In this document: piece after piece, positions 27,059 to 40,667 of the stretch
Layout: every line of letters begins with the position of its first letter
How positions within the stretch are numbered: the first letter of the stretch is position 1
NCBI RefSeq assembly: GCF_000420505.1
Contig: NZ_ATVB01000010.1
Span: 1 to 64,000, forward strand
Length of the DNA stretch: 64,000 nucleotides
Origin: Alloscardovia omnicolens DSM 21503
Lineage (GTDB): Bacteria > Actinomycetota > Actinomycetes > Actinomycetales > Bifidobacteriaceae
Direction: 5' to 3'
The notes under the pieces: model-generated
The model's input: only the letters and a program-made list of their open reading frames with translations
The model's database searches: none
Told to the model about the DNA's origin: nothing
Made by a program: the position numbers and the translations under genes

Positions 27059-29680
27059 ATGGAACAGAAATTTACAACAATGGCGCAGGAAGCCATTTCA
27101 TCAGCAGTTCAAAGCGCCTCTGCTGCAGGAAATCCTCAAGTAGAAACGCTTCACTTAGTTGATGCTCTCCTGAATCAAGAGCAAGGCGTGGTACGCGGTT
27201 TGCTGGAGGCTACCGGTGCAGACGTGCAGTCAATTGGCGCGGCAATCCGTAATGCTCTCGTAGCTTTGCCGCAGGTCAGAGGAAATACTACTACCCAAGC
27301 ATCAGCAGCACGCTCAGTTGAAGTAGCCCTGGTAGACGCTCAAAAAATCATGTCAAAAATGGGCGATGAATATATCTCAACCGAGCATCTGCTCATTGCT
27401 GTGGCTCAGGGTCAATCTCAAGCAGCAGGCATTCTCAAGAAGTTTGGCGCAACGGCTCAAGCCCTCACGCAAGCAGTTCCAAGCGTGCGTGGAGGGGCGA
27501 AAGTAACCAGCCCAGACGCAGAAGGCTCGTACAAGGCGCTCGAAAAGTACTCAACAGATTTAACTGCGCGCGCTCGCGAGGGAAAGTTGGATCCTGTTAT
27601 CGGTCGCGATAAGGAAATTCGCCGTGTTATCCAAATTCTGAGCCGCCGCACGAAAAACAATCCAGTACTCATCGGCGAGCCAGGTGTGGGTAAAACTGCT
27701 GTTGTTGAAGGTCTGGCTCAGCGCGTGGTAGCGGGAGATGTGCCAACAACGCTGCAAAATAAACGTGTAATTACGCTCGATATGTCATCAATGGTGGCTG
27801 GGTCAAAATATCGTGGTGAGTTTGAAGAGCGTTTGAAGGCTGTGCTGGAGGAAATTCAGCGCGCAGAGGGCAATATTATTACCTTCATCGACGAAATCCA
27901 TACCATCGTGGGTGCTGGAGCTACAGAAGGTTCAATGGATGCGGGCAATATGCTCAAGCCTATGCTGGCTCGCGGTGAGCTGCGCTTAATTGGTGCAACA
28001 ACGCTGGATGAGTATCGTGAAAATATTGAGAAAGATCCAGCTCTTGAGCGTCGTTTCCAGCAAGTATTCGTGGGTGAGCCAAGCGTAGAAGATACGGTTG
28101 CGATTTTACGTGGTTTGAAGGAGCGCTACGAAGCACACCATAAAGTGACGATTGGTGATGACGCTTTAGTGGCTGCAGCAACACTGTCTAACCGTTATAT
28201 TTCGGGTCGTCAGCTGCCAGATAAGGCTATTGATTTGGTCGATGAAGCAGCCGCTCATTTGCGTATGGAACTCGATTCTTCTCCAGAAGAGATTGATGAG
28301 CTGAGCCGTCGCGTTACGCGCTTAGAGATGGAAGAAATGCAGCTGAAAAAGTCCGAAGATATTGCATCTCAGGAGCGTTTGGAAAAGTTGCAATCGGAGC
28401 TTGCAGATACGCGCGAACAGTTGGCAGGTTTGAATGCTCGCTGGGAGTCTGAAAAGAGTGGACATAACAAGGTGGGCGATTTGCGTGCTCAGCTCGATGC
28501 TTTGCGCGTGGAAGCGGATAAAGCAACTCGTGAGGGTGATTTAGAGAAGGCATCGCGCATTTTGTATGGCGATATTCCGTCTATTCAAAAGGAGTTGGCT
28601 GCGGCTGAAAGGAACGCGGATGATAGCAAAGCTGAACAGAGCGAAACTGAGCCAATGGTTCCAGATCATGTAGATGCTGATTCTATTGCTCAAATTGTGT
28701 CGGATTGGACGGGCATTCCTGTTGGTCGCTTGATGCAGGGAGAAAACGAAAAGCTCCTGCATATGGAAGATGAGCTGGGCAAGCGCGTTATTGGTCAGAA
28801 AGAAGCTGTGCGTGCCGTTTCGGATGCTGTGCGCCGTTCTCGTGCAGGTATTTCTGATCCAAACCGCCCAACGGCTAGCTTTATGTTCCTGGGGCCAACA
28901 GGTGTGGGTAAAACGGAGCTGGCTAAAGCTTTGGCAGATTTCCTCTTTGATGATGAACGAGCGGTTGTGCGCATTGATATGAGCGAGTATATGGAGAAGT
29001 CCTCCGTTTCGCGCTTAATTGGTGCGGCTCCTGGCTATATCGGCTACGAAGAAGGCGGGCAGTTGACCGAAGCTGTGCGTCGTCGTCCGTACTCTGTTGT
29101 GCTCTTTGATGAGGTGGAGAAAGCGCATCCAGAAGTTTTTGACATTTTATTGCAGGTTCTTGATGACGGTCGTTTAACTGATGGTCAGGGTCGAACAGTG
29201 GACTTTAAGAACACGATTTTGATTATGACCTCGAACTTGGGTTCGCAGTTCCTTGTCTCGTCGGAGCTTGAAGGTGAGGCGCGCAAGCAGGCGGTAATGA
29301 ACGCTGTTCATGCGCACTTTAAGCCAGAATTCATTAACCGTTTGGATGATTTGATTGTTTTCGATCCTCTAACTCGCGATGAGCTTGCTCATATTGTTGA
29401 TATTCAGGTGAAGGCTGTGGCTGACCGTTTAACAGAGCGTCGCATCACTTTGAACGTAACGAAGTCTGCTCGCGAATGGCTTGCCGATAGGGGCTATGAT
29501 CCAGCTTTCGGTGCGCGTCCTTTGCGTCGCTTGGTGCAAAGTGAAGTAGGAGATCAGTTGGCGCGCATGCTTTTGTCGGGAGCTGTGCACGACGGCGATA
29601 CCGTGCTGGTCGATCAGACCGGTGGCGAGCATTTGGAGCTGAGCAGTTGGGCTACTGAAGACGTGCAACTGAACGATTAA
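27059..29680 (+). CDS. clpB: ATP-dependent disaggregase ClpB
   Basis: 873 residues, full length. N-domain ([15 protein letters not shown]...), first AAA module with Walker A GEPGVGKT and Walker [13 protein letters not shown], the coiled-coil M domain (about 410-530), then the second module with GPTGVGKT and [37 protein letters not shown]. ClpB hexamers thread aggregated proteins and hand them to DnaK, whose operon is also in this window. A HAIR site gives HspR control. Confidence 0.98.
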
Positions 29681-32166: not shown

Positions 32167-33009
32167 TTACTTAATACCTGTCATTGCTACGCCTTCAATG
32201 AAGTAACGTTGTAGGAATATGAACAGTAAAAGAATCGGTGTAATAATAAGTACTGCTCCAGCAAGTAGAACGCTGTAATTGGTTGCATTTTGACCAGTAG
32301 AGTAGAGGGAGAGCGCTACCGGCAATGTGTACATTGAGTCGGATTGAGCAGCTACTAATGGCCAGAGGAAATTATTCCAACTAGATAGGAAAGTCAAAAT
32401 AGATAGCGTTGCAATAGCGGGGCCACATTGTGGCAGTACTATCTGGAAGAAAATCCTTAGCTCCCCGGCTCCATCGATTCGAGCTGCTTCAATAACGGCA
32501 TCAGGAATCCCGGTCATAAATTGTCGCATGAGGAATACTCCCACAGGTTGTGTGAGGAAAGGTAAGATTAATGCGGCATATGTGTTAGAAAGTCCCAGAT
32601 TTGCAATAATCACAAAGAGCGGCACAAATGTTGCAACGCTTGGCACCATAAGCGTTACCATAACTGCGCCAAACACAATATTTTTGCCACGAAATTGCAT
32701 TTTAGCTAAGGCATATCCAACCATTGAGCAGAAAATGATATTTCCCAAAACAGTAATGACAGCAACAATAATGCTATTAGTGAAATATGTACTGAAATTT
32801 AGCTGTTCAAACCATTTCGTAAAATTCGCAAGGGTTGCGTGATCTGGCAGTAAACGTGGTGGCTTAGCTAATATTTCACGTTGTGTTTTGAGTGAGCCTA
32901 AAGCCATCCACAGAAATGGGAAGACCCATATGAGACTGATAACCGACAGGATAATATAAATTGGAATCCTGCGTGTTGCTGTACGAATATGCTTACTAGT
33001 TGATTGCAT
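32167..33009 (-). CDS. Sugar ABC transporter permease (MalG-like)
   Basis: 280 residues with six hydrophobic segments and EAA loop IEAARIDGAGELRIFFQIVLPQCGPA. SD agaggt before ATG 33009. It pairs with the permease encoded 11 bases upstream. No ATPase gene is in the operon. Confidence 0.93.
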   Translation of the reverse strand: MQSTSKHIRTATRRIPIYIILSVISLIWVFPFLWMALGSLKTQREILAKPPRLLPDHATLANFTKWFEQLNFSTYFTNSIIVAVITVLGNIIFCSMVGYALAKMQFRGKNIVFGAVMVTLMVPSVATFVPLFVIIANLGLSNTYAALILPFLTQPVGVFLMRQFMTGIPDAVIEAARIDGAGELRIFFQIVLPQCGPAIATLSILTFLSSWNNFLWPLVAAQSDSMYTLPVALSLYSTGQNATNYSVLLAGAVLIITPILLLFIFLQRYFIEGVAMTGIK

Positions 33010-33020
33010 TGTACGTACCT

Positions 33021-33938
33021 CTAATCTTCTGATTGCAGTAGGCGGAACTGCAATATGCTGACAAGTGCAATAATGATGAACAATACCCAGCTAGCTGCTG
33101 AAGCAATACCATAGCGGCCGAAACCAAATTGCTGGTAAACATAATATGCAGCTGAAAGTGTTGAATCGAGAGGTCCTCCTTGTGTCATGACAAAGGATTC
33201 CTCAAAGAATTGCAGATATGCAACAGAAATCAACACCGCCCCGAGCAGAATTGTAGGTTTCATTAATGGCAGGGTGATGTGCGTAAATATACGCCATTTT
33301 CCCGCTCCATCAACTGCTGCTGCTTCTTTTAATTCCGTTGGGATTGTTTGCAAGCCAGCGAGGAAAATAATCATGAGTGTTCCCATGTTGCGCCAGATAG
33401 TCATGACCATGAGAGCTGGTAAAGCGAAATGTGTATCGTGCAACCAATCAGGACCATGAATTCCTATGAGAGCTAGTATGGAGTTTAGCAATCCGTCTTC
33501 TTGTAAAATGTAGCGCCATACAACGGATACAGCAACAACACTTGCAACGACTGGAGCGTAGAGCATTGCTCTAAATATAGAATTGAGATGACGAGATCCT
33601 TTATTAAGGGCAGTTGCGCACGCCATCGCGATACAGATAGTTAGGGGCAAGCCGATAACAACGAAGATAGCTGTTGTAAGTAGAGCTTTGTGGAACCGTG
33701 GGTCTGTGAGTAGCGCAATGTAATTTTCCAGTCCTTTAAAATCTACGTTTAAAGGTGTGCGTAAATCACGTGATGTCATATCGGTAAGAGACATTCCAAT
33801 CGACGTAATTAGAGGAATGAACATAAATACGCTGAAGATTACAATGAACGGAGCGATAAAGCCCCAAGCCACTGCATTTTGTCTACGATGTAGAGTGTTT
33901 GGTGGCGTTCCCCTATTATTATCGGCTTGCTGCTTCAT
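33021..33938 (-). CDS. Sugar ABC transporter permease (MalF-like)
   Basis: 305 residues, six predicted helices, EAA motif KEAAAVDGAGKWRIFTHITLPLMKPT. Its ATG overlaps the binding-protein stop by one base (TAATG), showing coupling. Works with the MalG-like subunit. Confidence 0.93.
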   Translation of the reverse strand: MKQQADNNRGTPPNTLHRRQNAVAWGFIAPFIVIFSVFMFIPLITSIGMSLTDMTSRDLRTPLNVDFKGLENYIALLTDPRFHKALLTTAIFVVIGLPLTICIAMACATALNKGSRHLNSIFRAMLYAPVVASVVAVSVVWRYILQEDGLLNSILALIGIHGPDWLHDTHFALPALMVMTIWRNMGTLMIIFLAGLQTIPTELKEAAAVDGAGKWRIFTHITLPLMKPTILLGAVLISVAYLQFFEESFVMTQGGPLDSTLSAAYYVYQQFGFGRYGIASAASWVLFIIIALVSILQFRLLQSED

Positions 33939-35206
33939 TATTTACCTGTCCCGATCTTGTCTGCTTCTGCTTGGAGTTGTTTAAGGCCTTCATCAATCGA
34001 GAGGGAACCTTTATAGATTTGCTCCATAATTCGGTCTCCTGCTGCTGACACTTGTGGCCATCCTGGAACAGCCGGTGGAGCCATGGTGCTCTTTAGCTGT
34101 TCTCCATATGCTTTCAACTTGTCATCATTTGCGAGCGTGCTGTCTTCCCAGGCTTTCTGAGAAGATGGCAGGACTGTAGCAACTTTGTACCATTCGACTT
34201 GAGTGGTTGGATTGGTCATCCATTGGATAAATTTCCATGCAGATTGCTTGTTCTTTGACTCTTTCATAACAACCAAGTCAGCTCCTCCTACGAAGGAAGT
34301 GGAACTTTCACCGCGTGGGATTACAGCTGTGGCATATGACGATGAATCGCCCCCTTGGTCTGCAATTTGGCTGATAGTGGTTGGTCCGCCTGTCATGATT
34401 GGTGATTCTCCTTGAACGAATTGTGTAATACTTACGCCAGGAGTTGTGTCGAGATTAGTGTTGGTTATGCCCTCTTTAAAGAAGCTGTCGAGATATGTAG
34501 TAGCTTTCTTCATCTCAGGAGTGTTTAATGTCCATTTCTCTGAACTATCCATTAGCTGAACGCCGCTGGAGAAGAATGCCCAGAGTGTGCCCTGCCATGA
34601 ATCCGCGCCACTTGGAGAGATTAATATGCCGTTTTTGACGCCATCAACTTTCTTCACATCAGATGCCATTTGTTTGAGTTCATCCAGCGTTTTTGGTGCG
34701 TGGTTCCAACCGGCTTTCGCGGCAATGTCAGTGCGATAGTAGAGTACATGACTATCTACATACCATGGAACACCTAATTGAGTCTCATCTACTTGACCTG
34801 CTTTAAGAGGTCCTTCCGTAAAATCTGATAAATCGAAGTTTTCTGGTACTGCATCGAATGCTGTTGAGAAATCAGCCATCCATGTAGTTCCCATTTGAAT
34901 AACATCAGGCACTGTACCTGCAGCTATTGCGGTTTGAATCTTATCGTGTGCTGATGCCCATGGAATAGCTGTTACCTTTACCTTGGCATCAGGGTTATCC
35001 TTTTCAAATCCTTTGACGAAATCGCCAAGAAGATCACCCTCGTTACCCATTGCCCAAACTGTTAACTCGCCTGAAGCTGGTTTTGAATCTATTTGTGTTT
35101 CGGCTGCGCTGTTTGTATTACTGTTTTGTGAACGTCCGCAAGCGCCCATTCCGCAAATCAGTGCTACGCATGCAGCTAAAGTAATACTTTTCTTCCATTT
35201 GAACAT
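33938..35206 (-). CDS. Sugar ABC transporter substrate-binding lipoprotein
   Basis: 422 residues; lipobox MGAC with Cys23. Family-1 solute-binding protein (GELTVWAMGNEGDLLGDFVKGFEKDNPDAKVKVTAIPWASAHDKIQTAIAAG; VPWYVDSHVLYYRTD; GGADLVVMKESKNKQSAWKFIQWM). First gene of the importer-GH1 operon; two LacI-type operators lie just upstream. Confidence 0.92.
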   Translation of the reverse strand: MFKWKKSITLAACVALICGMGACGRSQNSNTNSAAETQIDSKPASGELTVWAMGNEGDLLGDFVKGFEKDNPDAKVKVTAIPWASAHDKIQTAIAAGTVPDVIQMGTTWMADFSTAFDAVPENFDLSDFTEGPLKAGQVDETQLGVPWYVDSHVLYYRTDIAAKAGWNHAPKTLDELKQMASDVKKVDGVKNGILISPSGADSWQGTLWAFFSSGVQLMDSSEKWTLNTPEMKKATTYLDSFFKEGITNTNLDTTPGVSITQFVQGESPIMTGGPTTISQIADQGGDSSSYATAVIPRGESSTSFVGGADLVVMKESKNKQSAWKFIQWMTNPTTQVEWYKVATVLPSSQKAWEDSTLANDDKLKAYGEQLKSTMAPPAVPGWPQVSAAGDRIMEQIYKGSLSIDEGLKQLQAEADKIGTGK

Positions 35207-35230
35207 GGTCGTTCCTCCTCGAACTCTTGT

Positions 35231-35273
35231 AATCTAAGCGGTTAGATTACATTAATATTTAAGCGCTTAGATT
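35231..35273. promoter_or_regulatory. Two LacI-type operators before the GH1 importer operon
   Basis: aatctaagcggttagatt (35231-35248) and tatttaagcgcttagatt (35256-35273) are two copies of an AATCTAAGCGSTTAGATT-like palindrome with centres 25 bases apart. They lie within 70 bases of the binding-protein start, well placed to be bound by the adjacent LacI regulator. The gap 35274-35475 shows nothing else. Confidence 0.82.
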
Positions 35274-35475
35274 TTATTTTGTCAAGTAGAGAATAGATGA
35301 ATGTCGAGGCATGTCATATGATAGAAAAATTTGATTTGAGGTGTGATTTATTGTAATTACCTGTATGACAGGCAGATAATAGGTAGCGATTTTTGTAGTG
35401 GAGCTTAATTGTATGCTGATTTAGAAAGCATAAAAAAGAAGTAGTAAATCTCCTGTTGCGTCGGGAATGAATGTT

Positions 35476-36570
35476 TTATTGTGTTTTACATCCGCAACTT
35501 TCACCAATAATCATACGCACTGGAAGTTTATATGATTGAGGTGAATCCCATGGTATGCCTGCGCGTTCGTCAAGAAGTTTTGCGGCTAGGCGTCCCATGT
35601 GTTCCATTGGCTGGCGAACAGTTGTGATAGGTGGACGAGAGAATTCTGCTGCCATAATTCCATCAAAACCGGTTATAAGAATATCTTCTGGAATACGAAT
35701 GCCGGCATCGGTTAAGATCTCCATAACATTGAGTGCTGTCTGGTCATTTGCACATACGATTGCTTGAGGAAGTTGATTAGTGTCGATTGCTTCGCAGAGC
35801 TTAACCATCCACTCTTGTGATGTGGCTTCTGAATTATCTAGTAAAGCTGTTGTTACTTGGATGCCTCGTTGAGTGACATGTTGTTGGAAAGCATTGAATC
35901 TGCTACGCATATCAAAAGTTGTAATCTCTCCAATAAAAGACATGTCCGTTATGTGGTGAATATCGATTAAATGGTCGATTAGAGAAATAATTCCAGCAGT
36001 ATTGTCGCAGTATATGCTGGCGCAGGATAAAGTGTTATCAAGATCGCCGATGCGTACTAATGGAACTGTTCGGCATAGTTGAGGTAGTGGCAAGTCGTCT
36101 GTACCGTGATTAGGGAAAACAGCTAATCCGTCCACGCTACCTGCAATGTCAGTAATGGAATTATTTTCTTTTGGAGAGTTTGCGGTGCCGAGTAAAACAG
36201 TTTTACCTCGATGCCAACATTCAAGTTCGAATCCACGCTGTATTTCGTCAACGTAGAGTGGGTAAACGAACATATTTGGGCGAGTAAAAGAAGAATCATT
36301 TTGCTCGTTGAGTGCGTTAAGATCCTCTAGCTCGCTACCTAGTGGACGTTCCAGTAACATGTCAAAGGAATATAGTCCCAATGCACCTGTTTTACCGCGA
36401 GCGAGACCTCGAGCACTAGCAGAAGGTACATAATCTAGAATGGCTGCGGCATCAAGTACTTTTTTTCGAGTTTTATCTTTAACCTTATCTGGATGTCTAA
36501 ATGCAAAAGAAACCGTGGCAGTTGACACTCCTGCCTTTTTGGCGACATCATACACTGTTGATTTTCGCAT
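35476..36570 (-). CDS. LacI-family transcriptional regulator of the GH1 cassette
   Basis: 364 residues. HTH at about 4-30 (VYDVAKKAGVSTATVSFAFRHPDKVKDKTR) and hinge; the effector domain contains a roughly 40-residue insert (LLERPLGSELEDLNALNEQN...) near residues 75-105. It ends with GESCGCKTQ, a Cys pair seen in several LacI-type sugar regulators. It is transcribed in the same direction as, and upstream of, the importer operon; the paired palindromes at 35231-35273 are the likely targets. Confidence 0.9.
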   Translation of the reverse strand: MRKSTVYDVAKKAGVSTATVSFAFRHPDKVKDKTRKKVLDAAAILDYVPSASARGLARGKTGALGLYSFDMLLERPLGSELEDLNALNEQNDSSFTRPNMFVYPLYVDEIQRGFELECWHRGKTVLLGTANSPKENNSITDIAGSVDGLAVFPNHGTDDLPLPQLCRTVPLVRIGDLDNTLSCASIYCDNTAGIISLIDHLIDIHHITDMSFIGEITTFDMRSRFNAFQQHVTQRGIQVTTALLDNSEATSQEWMVKLCEAIDTNQLPQAIVCANDQTALNVMEILTDAGIRIPEDILITGFDGIMAAEFSRPPITTVRQPMEHMGRLAAKLLDERAGIPWDSPQSYKLPVRMIIGESCGCKTQ

Positions 36571-36671: not shown

Positions 36672-36866
36672 CTATTCTTCCATATACTTCTGTGGTTCTG
36701 CCTTAAAAGCTTCTAAACAATGGTCTGAGCAGAAGTGGTATACCTTGCTTCCGTAAGCAAAAGGACGCTGGTCGGCATCAACGGTCATTCCACAGATAGG
36801 GTCAATCAGCACATCCTCAAGACCACTTGTGGCTGCGGTTGGTTTTTTCTTCAAAAAATCAAACAT
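36672..36866 (-). CDS. Possible separate YHS-domain protein from an internal start
   Basis: Inside the P-ATPase frame an ATG at 36866 is preceded by a perfect SD (aaggagaactc). From it a 64-residue protein would be made: a basic start MFDFLKKKPT, then a YHS domain with DPICGM and FCSDHC cysteines for heavy-metal binding. Such small YHS proteins are often encoded next to copper ATPases. Either the fusion is recent and the old start is a relic, or both forms are made. Confidence 0.5.
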   Translation of the reverse strand: MFDFLKKKPTAATSGLEDVLIDPICGMTVDADQRPFAYGSKVYHFCSDHCLEAFKAEPQKYMEE

Positions 36867-39143
36867 GAGTTCTCCTTGGTTTGAATGAGTACTATCGTCA
36901 ATAATAATCTGGGGATGAGCAGAGTTCAGTGGTTTCGCTTCGCGCGAGCTGTCTATGCGTGCAGTGCGTACGCGCGAGGAATTGAGCACTAAACTAACTG
37001 AACTAAAAGCCATGGCAAGTCCTGCAATCATTGGGTTGAGTAGCCAACCAGTGAAAGGGTAGAGAATGCCAGTGGCAATAACAATGCCCACAAGATTGTA
37101 AGCAAAAGCAAAACCAAGGTTTTGGTAAATATTGCGCATCGTAGCGCGGCTCAAACGAATCATGCGTGCAACCGATGTAATATCTCCGTTCATCAGCGTT
37201 ACATCAGCGGATCGCATAGCAATATCTGTGCCAGTTCCCATAGCAAAACCTAAATCAGCCTGAGCTAAAGCAGGCGCGTCGTTAATGCCATCACCCACCA
37301 TAGCAATCATATGGTTTCTCTCGGCACCGCGCTGCTGTTGAGCATGAGAAATCCAAAAAGCTTTGCCATCTGGTTTCACCTGTGCAATCGCAGTGGATAT
37401 TCCTGCCTCACGAGCAACCTGTTTGGCAACCTCAGTCTTATCTCCTGACAACATAATCGTGCGGATTCCCATGTCGGTAAGCTCAGCCAAAGCTGCTGCA
37501 GACGTCGGTTTAATGCGGTCGTGCGTATAAGAAATACGGGCAGAACTCACATCCTGTACCTGTGCTACACCCTGTGTAATCGTTCCTGTTTTATCAAAAA
37601 ATATCGTGCGAATAAAACGCGCCTTATCGAGCGCATCAGCAGAGGAAATCAAAATACCATACTGAGCGCCGCGCCCAATAGCTGCGGTAATAGATAGAGG
37701 GGTAGCTAAGCCTAAAGCGCATGGACAAGCAATAATAAGCACAGTAACAGCAGTAGTTAATGCAAAACTAAAAGCGGACCGCTGGGCAAAAATCATCCAC
37801 AGTGTGAAGGTCCACAAAGCTATAAGAAAAACAGCAGGAACAAAAACGCGGGCAATTTTATCGACAACTGCCTGAACAGGAGCTTTACTTGCCTGAGCAG
37901 AAGCAACGAGCTGAATAATCTGCGACAAAACCGTATCCTGACCGGTTGCCGTAATGCGCAGCGCAACAGGAGCATTAAGATTCAAAGTGCCACCCGTAAT
38001 AGCATCTCCTATTACGCGCTCAATCGCAGCCGACTCGCCGGTCATCATAGACTCATCGAAACGAGCTGAACCGCGCACAATCACACCATCAGCAGGAACG
38101 CTGTGCCCGCCAGGGACTTGCACAATATCGCCAGTTTTAATCTGGCTCATTGGCGTTTGAGTGCCAGCCTGCGGCAAGCGCCACGCTTCGGTTTTGAGCT
38201 CGGAATCGCTGAGAACGCGTGCAGTATCAGGGCGCAGAGCCATGAGCGCTTCAATGGCACTATTCGTGCCAGCTCGCGCTCGCGATTCAATAAGCGAACC
38301 CATAACAACAAGAGTGAGTACAACAACAACTGTGTCGAAATAGACGTGGCGAGCGGTTGCTGGAAGAATCTCAGGAGCAATGCATACCAGCATGCTAAAG
38401 ACATAGGCGGCACTCGTTCCCACTGTAACAAGCGCATTCATTTCTGGATTGCGGTGAATAAGTGCGCTCCAGCCAATACGGTGAATATCCCAGCCAGTAT
38501 AGAGCATAACAGGCGTGGCGAGAACAGCCTGAATCCAAGGGTTATTGAGTGTGTGGAGGATTGGAAGCGAGGAGTTGTGTCCCCAAAACATGAAGCCCAT
38601 GCCCAGAATAAACACGGGAATACTAAAAATAACGCCGACGAGGAAGCGCTTCTTCAGGGTGTTGAGTTCGGCAGTGCGGTCGTCTGAATGGGAATCGGTA
38701 ACTTCGGTGGTGTTGTTTGTTTCTCTGATGGTGGCATCAGTATCGGAATCAGTATCGCTATCAATATTCGTGCCGCCTTCGCCGGTGACGCGTAACATGC
38801 CGTGCACCATATTCATACCGCAGGCAAAAGGATAATCACCAGCAGATAAAGCAGGTAAATGTATAGCGGTTGTGCGCCCTGCAGGAAGAAAAGTGTCTCG
38901 TCCCAAATCGGAAAAAACCACATGTGAGGTGCATTCGCCACTATCTTTGCGGTCAAAATATATGGTCAGAGGTGTTCCTGCCTGTGCGTAGATAAGAGCA
39001 GGAGAATATGAGCCGTTAATGCTTATGGTAATCTCTTGCTTTGCGCCATTGATAACGGTGTGCTCGCCTTTGCGTGGAGCAAAAAAGAACCAGACTAAAG
39101 CTATGCTGAGGACTATTGCAACTGCGCAGTATACAAAAATCAT
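36672..39143 (-). CDS. Cupredoxin-P1B-ATPase-YHS fusion lacking most of the N domain
   Basis: 823 residues in one frame. Order: a membrane anchor (1-20); a cupredoxin-like domain (about 28-125; GECTSHVVF and CGMNMVHG as copper ligands); an acidic linker; the P1B core with TGES (MMTGESAA), metal-binding CPCALG, phosphorylated Asp517 in DKTGT, then MLSGDK (Asp568) and MVGDGINDAPAL; and a C-terminal YHS domain (DPICGMTVD, HFCSDHC). Only 51 residues separate Asp517 from Asp568, against about 150 in CopA-type pumps, so the nucleotide-binding domain with its HP motif is missing. The N-terminal HMA domain is also absent. It is likely a copper export relative, but ATP hydrolysis by this form is doubtful. 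Confidence 0.85.
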   Translation of the reverse strand: MIFVYCAVAIVLSIALVWFFFAPRKGEHTVINGAKQEITISINGSYSPALIYAQAGTPLTIYFDRKDSGECTSHVVFSDLGRDTFLPAGRTTAIHLPALSAGDYPFACGMNMVHGMLRVTGEGGTNIDSDTDSDTDATIRETNNTTEVTDSHSDDRTAELNTLKKRFLVGVIFSIPVFILGMGFMFWGHNSSLPILHTLNNPWIQAVLATPVMLYTGWDIHRIGWSALIHRNPEMNALVTVGTSAAYVFSMLVCIAPEILPATARHVYFDTVVVVLTLVVMGSLIESRARAGTNSAIEALMALRPDTARVLSDSELKTEAWRLPQAGTQTPMSQIKTGDIVQVPGGHSVPADGVIVRGSARFDESMMTGESAAIERVIGDAITGGTLNLNAPVALRITATGQDTVLSQIIQLVASAQASKAPVQAVVDKIARVFVPAVFLIALWTFTLWMIFAQRSAFSFALTTAVTVLIIACPCALGLATPLSITAAIGRGAQYGILISSADALDKARFIRTIFFDKTGTITQGVAQVQDVSSARISYTHDRIKPTSAAALAELTDMGIRTIMLSGDKTEVAKQVAREAGISTAIAQVKPDGKAFWISHAQQQRGAERNHMIAMVGDGINDAPALAQADLGFAMGTGTDIAMRSADVTLMNGDITSVARMIRLSRATMRNIYQNLGFAFAYNLVGIVIATGILYPFTGWLLNPMIAGLAMAFSSVSLVLNSSRVRTARIDSSREAKPLNSAHPQIIIDDSTHSNQGELMFDFLKKKPTAATSGLEDVLIDPICGMTVDADQRPFAYGSKVYHFCSDHCLEAFKAEPQKYMEE

Positions 39144-39221: not shown

Positions 39222-40667
39222 GTGGCGATACCTTCTGCTATTGTCGAACATATGTTCGAATTTATTATTGCTCTTGTTATTGGTGCTCTTCTCGGTGGCG
39301 CGCTGGGTTTTATGTACGCGCGCATGAGTTCGCGTGCGGGGGCGAAGGGCGAAAATCAAGACTCTGCTGAGCATCTTACACAGCAAGTGCAGGAACTAAC
39401 GAGTGCTCGTGATAGTTTGACTGAGCATGTGGAACAACTGCGCGGCGATTTAGCTGCTGAACGTGAGGCAACTGCTAAGCTCGAGGGAACAGTGCAGGGA
39501 GAGCGTGAGAAACTTGTGCTGCTTCAGGAGCAACTCGACGCTGCCCGTAAAGACGTGCAGTTAGCGCGTAAGGCAGAAGAAGAGCGTGTAGAGCGTGAAC
39601 GAGAGAAAGAGCTTAAGCGCGAAGAAGAACTGCGCGCTAAGCAAGAGCAAGAACTCACAGAACAGTCTCGCGTGCTGAAGGCACTGACTCCAGTGCAGAA
39701 GAACTTAGATATTCTGCAGCAAAAAGTGGCTCTGATGGAAGAAAGCCGCAAGAGTGAAATGGGTAAGCTGGGAGAGCAGCTGCTCGGTTTGGGTAAAGCG
39801 CAAGAAAAGCTCGATAAAGAAACAACGAGTTTGGCTATGGCTTTGCGCAATAACAAGATTCGCGGTGCATGGGGCGAAGCACAGCTGAAGAATATTGTGG
39901 AATCTGCTGGTTTGCGTGAACATGTTGATTTTGAAACACAATATGTGGTGCACGGTAATGATGGGCAACGGCAGCGTCCTGATATGGTGGTGAATTTGCC
40001 AGATGGAAAGTTCATTCCAATCGATGCGAAAGTGCCATATTCTGCTTATCAGAAGGCATGTGAAATAAGCGATGCTGCTCCTGAGCAAGAATTGCAATTG
40101 CGCGATGAATATCTGCATGAACATGCTAAAGCCTTACGTGCGCATATTGATGAGTTGGGCAAGCGCGAGTATTGGAAAAATGGCGATGATCGTGTGGCGC
40201 CAGATTTCGTTATCGCCTTTATTCCAAACGAATCGCTTCTGCAGGCAGCTTTGGATGTTGACCCAACAATTCTGGATTATGCGTTTAATAAGCAGGTGGC
40301 ACTTACTTCACCCGTTACCTTATGGTCGGTGTTGAAGTCCGTCGCTTTCGCTTGGCAGCAGCAAACATTAAGTGACGAAGCGCAGCAGCTTTTCGACCTA
40401 TCTCGAGATCTTTTCGATCGTTTAGGAACGATGAGCGCTCATGCCACAAAGCTCGGTCGTACGCTGGGAACAGCTGTGCTCGACTACAATAAATTCGTTG
40501 GTTCCTTACAATCGAAGGTGGTGCCAACGGCACGCAAACTCTCGAAATTAGACGGTGGGAATTTGTTTGAGCTGCCACAGCCTATTGAAGACGAGAAAAA
40601 GAGCGATATTCGCGAAATAACCGCGCCGGAACTTATTACCACATGGGACGACGAGACGGAAAGATAG
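39222..40667 (+). CDS. rmuC: RmuC-family DNA recombination protein
   Basis: 481 residues. One N-terminal membrane helix (MFEFIIALVIGALLGGALGFMYA), a long coiled coil (about 45-190, rich in Glu/Lys/Arg) and the RmuC nuclease-like domain (NNKIRGAWGEAQLKNIVESAGL, RPDMVVNLPDGKFIPIDAKVPYSAY, VAPDFVIAFIPNESLLQAAL). RmuC limits inversions and acts in DNA repair/recombination. The GTG at 39222 has an SD (gcgagg); an alternative ATG at 39252 lies inside a LexA box. Divergent from the P-ATPase. Confidence 0.92.
   Translation: MAIPSAIVEHMFEFIIALVIGALLGGALGFMYARMSSRAGAKGENQDSAEHLTQQVQELTSARDSLTEHVEQLRGDLAAEREATAKLEGTVQGEREKLVLLQEQLDAARKDVQLARKAEEERVEREREKELKREEELRAKQEQELTEQSRVLKALTPVQKNLDILQQKVALMEESRKSEMGKLGEQLLGLGKAQEKLDKETTSLAMALRNNKIRGAWGEAQLKNIVESAGLREHVDFETQYVVHGNDGQRQRPDMVVNLPDGKFIPIDAKVPYSAYQKACEISDAAPEQELQLRDEYLHEHAKALRAHIDELGKREYWKNGDDRVAPDFVIAFIPNESLLQAALDVDPTILDYAFNKQVALTSPVTLWSVLKSVAFAWQQQTLSDEAQQLFDLSRDLFDRLGTMSAHATKLGRTLGTAVLDYNKFVGSLQSKVVPTARKLSKLDGGNLFELPQPIEDEKKSDIREITAPELITTWDDETER
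39244..39259. promoter_or_regulatory. LexA/SOS box at the start of rmuC
   Basis: TCGAACATATGTTCGA is a 16-bp perfect palindrome containing GAAC-N4-GTTC, the LexA-binding core of Gram-positive and actinobacterial SOS genes. It overlaps the first codons of rmuC and lies 101 bases from the P-ATPase start. Confidence 0.72.

Follow-up and report, generated by a model that had tools for sequence, protein, structure and literature searches.

A copper P-type ATPase clade of Bifidobacteriaceae that lacks the nucleotide-binding domain

The phosphorylation (P), actuator (A), nucleotide-binding (N), and membrane domains are regarded as the core that P-type ATPases share. A gene in Alloscardovia omnicolens DSM 21503 raises the question of what becomes of such a pump when one of the four is missing. 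The window, the whole stretch of 64,000 nucleotides that was analyzed, encodes on its minus strand an 823-residue protein that passes the curated cut-off of the copper-ATPase profile and that is, judged from its domains, a fusion of a cupredoxin, a P1B-ATPase core, and a YHS domain. An earlier note on this DNA had described the open reading frame, its strand and coordinates, and its DKTGT, TGES, CPC, and GDGINDAP motifs, all of which were borne out. The parts of the gene are listed here, residue r starting at base 39143-3(r-1).

36672-39143, minus strand: P1B-type copper ATPase without an N domain, 823 aa (open reading frame; TIGR01511, ATPase-IB1_Cu, 483.5 bits against a cut-off of 397)
38793-39104, minus strand: N-terminal membrane-anchored cupredoxin domain, aa 14-117 (Pfam PF13473, Cupredoxin_1, E 2.5e-19)
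37662-38237, minus strand: E1-E2 core and A domain, aa 303-494 (Pfam PF00122, E 3.1e-49)
38157-38186, minus strand: clade-specific A-domain insertion with invariant Trp321, about aa 320-329 (alignment against sister proteins)
38031-38042, minus strand: TGES motif for dephosphorylation, aa 368-371 (no variation in the alignment of the clade)
37719-37727, minus strand: CPC copper site within the membrane domain, aa 473-475, C473-P474-C475 (clade-invariant)
37581-37595, minus strand: DKTGT with the phosphorylated Asp517 (invariant, 40/40)
37524-37568, minus strand: short linker, aa 526-540, replacing the N domain of about 104 residues (phmmer and alignment; modelled as a beta hairpin)
37149-37523, minus strand: second half of the P domain, aa 541-665 (Pfam, P-domain model)
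37350-37448, minus strand: signature of the clade, SGD-x22-PxGKAxWI, which contains catalytic Lys594 and Trp597 (alignment, genome scans)
37272-37295, minus strand: GDGINDAP motif, aa 617-624 (motif search; GDGxND invariant)
36681-36806, minus strand: C-terminal YHS domain, aa 780-821 (Pfam PF04945, E 3.7e-11)
36864-36877, minus strand: internal Shine-Dalgarno AAGGAG (36872-36877) and ATG (36864-36866), 5' of the YHS domain (in 36/39 YHS-bearing clade loci)

The missing piece can be delimited against Legionella CopA (LCopA). With phmmer, residues 158-530 of the pump matched LCopA 76-439 and residues 533-727 matched LCopA 544-733, leaving unmatched the 104 LCopA residues (440-543) that include the N domain with its HP motif. 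The Pfam Hydrolase profile matched through its C-terminal part alone (aa 540-630), and the absence of the N domain that the earlier note had read from the spacing of motifs is thus upheld. Its figure of 51 residues from DKTGT to SGDK was nearly right; a recount gives 49 from Asp517 to Ser566 of SGDK, or 44 strictly between the two motifs. By alignment, the aspartate and GDGxND lie 100 residues apart in the Alloscardovia pump, compared with about 190 to 245 in full-length relatives of the same family.

To follow the gap beyond this genome, we searched 59 related genomes and aligned the matches. Several relatives gave single matches spanning the junction, and the gap proved common to the congeners G001, G003, and G004 and to three further genera. 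A signature common to the N-less proteins, SGD-x22-PxGKAxWI, is absent from full-length relatives, and a scan for it over 84,980 species genomes yielded 46 Bifidobacteriaceae records and 14 others. All 45 Bifidobacteriaceae records with a readable aspartate motif, which come from Bifidobacterium, Alloscardovia, Pseudoscardovia, and Scardovia, have just 48 to 69 residues from the aspartate to SGD, and all 11 readable P-ATPases with the signature from outside the family have 128 to 173. The same gap, sought in relatives as the earlier note had advised, is therefore present in the separately sequenced genomes of about 45 species, while an assembly restoring some 100 codons occurs in no relative of the clade; assembly error was rejected on this ground. 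Within the family, 57 of 189 sampled genomes carry the signature: 47/112 in the genus that holds Bifidobacterium, 4/5 in Alloscardovia, 4/4 in Pseudoscardovia, and 2/3 in Scardovia, with none in the other twelve genera of that sample.

Individual genomes depart from this pattern. One Alloscardovia genome (G002) has no N-less pump and instead carries an N-domain-bearing CPC pump of another branch (G002:C22:304961-307324). In a Scardovia copy (L019, G034:C1) a stop ends the cupredoxin part and the pump core is a separate stretch, so that the fusion is split; its aspartate-to-SGD distance is 85 residues, with a low-complexity linker and no HP motif. In the copy from Scardovia wiggsiae (L052) the YHS domain is missing. 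A search for independent losses elsewhere in Actinomycetota, by aspartate-to-SGD spacings of about 36 to 46 residues, a range that would also miss the clade itself, found none in 296 genomes, and the pumps listed by a plasmid search all matched in several pieces, consistent with a normal N domain.

A tree built without the N-domain columns joins the N-less proteins in a single clade (SH-aLRT 100), with the full-length cupredoxin-CopA of the same family as its sister group. Inside it, Alloscardovia, Scardovia, Pseudoscardovia, and Bifidobacterium each form their own subgroup. Together with the shared rmuC and clpB setting described below, this indicates a single loss of the N domain before these genera split, followed by mostly vertical inheritance. 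Over the whole tree three changes are needed, as two further proteins, L013 and L015, have lost the domain separately. These are P1B pumps from metagenome-assembled genomes (G006:C69 and G033:C85) with aspartate-to-SGD distances of 41 and 34 residues. They resemble the clade in that short spacing and in otherwise complete motifs and differ from it in belonging to two other P1B branches and other genera of the family, in lacking PxGKAxWI, and in their metagenomic origin. A small open reading frame for an HMA-domain (CopZ-like) protein precedes L013.

The N-less pump is under purifying selection. Over the core, dN/dS by the NG86 method, in which some dS values are saturated, is 0.05 to 0.21 for N-less pairs, similar to or lower than the 0.19 to 0.27 of full-length sisters. 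Asp517 and the rest of DKTGT, SGD, catalytic Lys594, and GDGxND are invariant in 40 of 40 P domains; TGE and CPC show no variation across the clade, nor do H74, C108, and H114 of the cupredoxin domain in the clade alignment. Other positions changed and then became fixed. Phe516, Ser566, Gly593, Trp597, and the inserted Trp321 are fixed in 43 to 44 of 44 N-less sequences and absent or rare in eight full-length sisters; at Trp321 the split is complete, with tryptophan in 44/44 and a gap in 8/8. Catalysis has thus been preserved while what surrounds it was remodeled. The interval from SGD to GDGxND is 48 to 122 residues in the clade compared with about 46 in ordinary pumps, a spread that stems from low-complexity insertions after the catalytic lysine (in L032-L091, e.g., L037, L050, and L088).

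These results bear on the proposal, raised in the earlier note, that a recent deletion had inactivated the pump. The loss of one domain is precise and in frame, as a deletion would be, but it is monophyletic, is common to about 45 species in several genera, predates the divergence of Alloscardovia, Pseudoscardovia, Scardovia, and Bifidobacterium, and has been followed by purifying selection with the residues of the phosphorylation cycle invariant. We give next to no credence to a recent deletion, a pseudogene, or an assembly error as the account of the absent domain. The loss of the N domain from this bifidobacterial copper pump is real, ancient, and conserved.

Structure prediction addresses what remains. 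An AlphaFold2 model of the pump from 36 sequences (pLDDT 83) has the P1B fold, with CopA, ATP7B, and HMA4 as best matches, and the P domain modelled alone reaches a pLDDT of 91.8. Of the 172 residues in that P-domain model, 164 superpose on LCopA 404-672 (Z 26.0), with about 100 LCopA residues skipped, and the model also aligns with the capless KdsC phosphatases at a TM score of about 0.75 in both directions over about 168 alignment columns. Given the fit to both, the P domain is predicted to have a normal fold and an active site with no cap over it.

The surroundings of the gene are partly conserved. Its divergent neighbor in the window is as follows.

39222-40667, plus strand: rmuC-like gene, divergent, a conserved neighbor of the pump (open reading frame, neighborhood comparison)

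In Alloscardovia, Pseudoscardovia, and Bifidobacterium rmuC adjoins the pump, often with clpB, and in many Bifidobacterium genomes pump and clpB are directly adjacent. The clpB of the window lies apart (27059-29644), and between the two are genes for a sugar ABC transporter (two permeases and a binding protein) and a LacI regulator (32167-36570, minus strand). The copper sensor and repressor CsoR is encoded beside the pump in about 17 species and was not found in the Alloscardovia (including the window genome), Pseudoscardovia, and Scardovia genomes tested. The window genome encodes four P-ATPases, among which the N-less pump is the sole CPC type; the others, all with ordinary spacing from the aspartate to GDG, are one P1B pump of the TPC type and two whose motif is VPEGL or IPEGL. 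The idea that a redundant full-length CopA had freed the N-less pump to decay was rejected, as this genome has no second CPC pump.

Inside the open reading frame, shortly before the YHS domain, AAGGAG is followed 5 to 8 bases on by an ATG. The amino acids that spell this element differ, being KENxM in Bifidobacterium and QGELM in Alloscardovia, and several full-length sisters have a similar internal Shine-Dalgarno sequence ahead of the YHS domain. The element suggests that a free YHS protein, rich in Met and His, is made as a second product from the internal start.

How, then, might the pump be powered? Because the aspartyl-phosphate chemistry and the copper site are kept and the nucleotide pocket is gone, a phosphate donor that does not need the N domain would be the best explanation. 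Our main reading, to which we assign a probability of about 0.5, is a functional, copper-responsive P1B transporter that cycles through phospho-Asp517 without an N domain and is probably phosphorylated by a small acyl phosphate, with acetyl phosphate as the first candidate. Copper as the likely cargo is based on the CPC site, the cupredoxin and YHS domains, and CsoR. The metal would still be moved by the E1/E2 cycle, and Asp517 would take its phosphate from a donor small enough for an uncapped HAD-type site. Trp597, beside Lys594, and Trp321, in the A-domain loop, are likely compensating changes whose roles we can only guess; they may line the donor site or, standing in for lost N-domain contacts, link the A domain to the P domain.

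Acetyl phosphate is central to bifidobacterial metabolism: phosphoketolase yields it, and it ranks among the main products of the phosphoketolase pathway in this family. This, and a precedent in the gastric H,K-ATPase, make it the leading donor candidate. When the N-domain ATP site of that enzyme is blocked with FITC, 1.7% of its ATPase and 76% of its pNPPase activity are left, and the modified enzyme can hydrolyze acetyl phosphate or pNPP (PMC4215238). The bifid shunt of bifidobacteria employs phosphoketolase (PMC5315409), and the enzyme is encoded in 12 of 12 genomes tested, including that of the window. It is also encoded in genomes whose pumps have normal N domains; since the full-length pumps share family and metabolism, the correlation offers no contrast, and the identity of the donor stays inferred. 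The pump may use another donor, or ATP weakly. Only tentatively do we extend the argument to P-type transporters that, as a clade, gave up ATP and run on bifid-shunt acetyl phosphate, having evolved by losing the N domain and reshaping the A and P domains.

The other readings differ in what they make of the retained parts. ATP might still be used, its triphosphate held by the P domain with help from the new tryptophans or the A domain and its adenine either unbound or stacked on Trp597 or Trp321, at an affinity lower than usual and yet enough at millimolar cellular ATP. The catalytic and Mg ligands of the P domain are all kept, and the clade-fixed tryptophans, one close to the catalytic lysine and one in the A domain, could stack; however, in P-type ATPases the adenine contact and much of the affinity come from the N domain, and the FITC block costs the H,K-ATPase nearly all of its ATPase activity (PMC4215238), so that we regard continued use of ATP as doubtful. 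The earlier note had offered, as the alternative to inactivation, a function other than ATP-driven transport. The loss of the ATP-binding domain speaks for this, and a role outside ordinary ATP-driven transport is plausible; the strict conservation of Asp517, TGE, Lys594, GDGxND, and CPC nevertheless argues that copper transport through a phosphoenzyme probably persists. That conservation also weighs on the proposal of a phosphorylation-independent copper protein, be it a passive Cu channel, a sensor, or a scaffold that passes copper among cupredoxin, CPC, and YHS. Such a protein would explain why the energy-coupling domain was lost and the metal-binding parts were kept, but the phosphorylation residues, invariant across dozens of species, would then be needless, and constraint on the P domain is not relaxed; we consider it improbable.

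An N domain supplied in trans by another polypeptide is very improbable. Split P-type ATPase parts are conceivable, and N domains are present in the other P1B pumps of this genome. When 10 clade genomes were searched with a profile built from nine N domains, no free-standing domain was found: strong matches lay only inside other full-length pumps and the remainder were weak and short, the best covering 33 residues (E 0.003) in one Scardovia genome. This candidate was rejected on that evidence.

The phosphoenzyme reading without the N domain has consequences beyond this family. The loss of the N domain from a catalytic machinery that is otherwise intact and under strong selection suggests that a P-type pump can be powered another way. 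Dozens of species from which the domain has been cleanly removed amount to a natural experiment on the purpose of the N domain, and the family would permit a direct test of whether aspartate phosphorylation and ion transport need ATP or just some high-energy phosphate. Were acetyl phosphate the fuel, copper defense would be tied to the central carbon flux of bifidobacteria. In the open-access literature searched, we found nothing on N-domain-less P-type ATPases or on such a pump in Bifidobacterium.

Among known systems, the N-less pump resembles CopA and the P1B-1 group (TIGR01511; Legionella CopA, 3RFU and 4BBJ; A. fulgidus CopA) in its CPC, TGES, DKTGT, SGD, lysine, and GDGxND. It differs in having neither N domain nor HP motif, and in the Trp321 insertion of the A domain, Trp597 after the catalytic lysine, and, in many species, a long loop before GDGxND. 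Nearest in the tree are the full-length cupredoxin-CopA-YHS pumps of Bifidobacteriaceae (L009, L011, L012, L014, L016, and L018), which have the same domain order, often an adjoining CsoR, and the similar internal Shine-Dalgarno sequence, but which keep a normal N domain and have none of the clade-specific tryptophans; neither rmuC nor clpB was found within about 10 kb of them. Capless HAD phosphatases (KdsC/YrbI) share with the P-domain model the HAD core fold and the lack of a cap over the active site. They are, in contrast, soluble, without a transport domain, and about 20% identical, and they carry a second aspartate in motif I, the DxD of which is absent from the pump, where DKT stands instead. 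What appears to be new is a natural P-type pump without an N domain, built on the already familiar P1B-1 CopA core.
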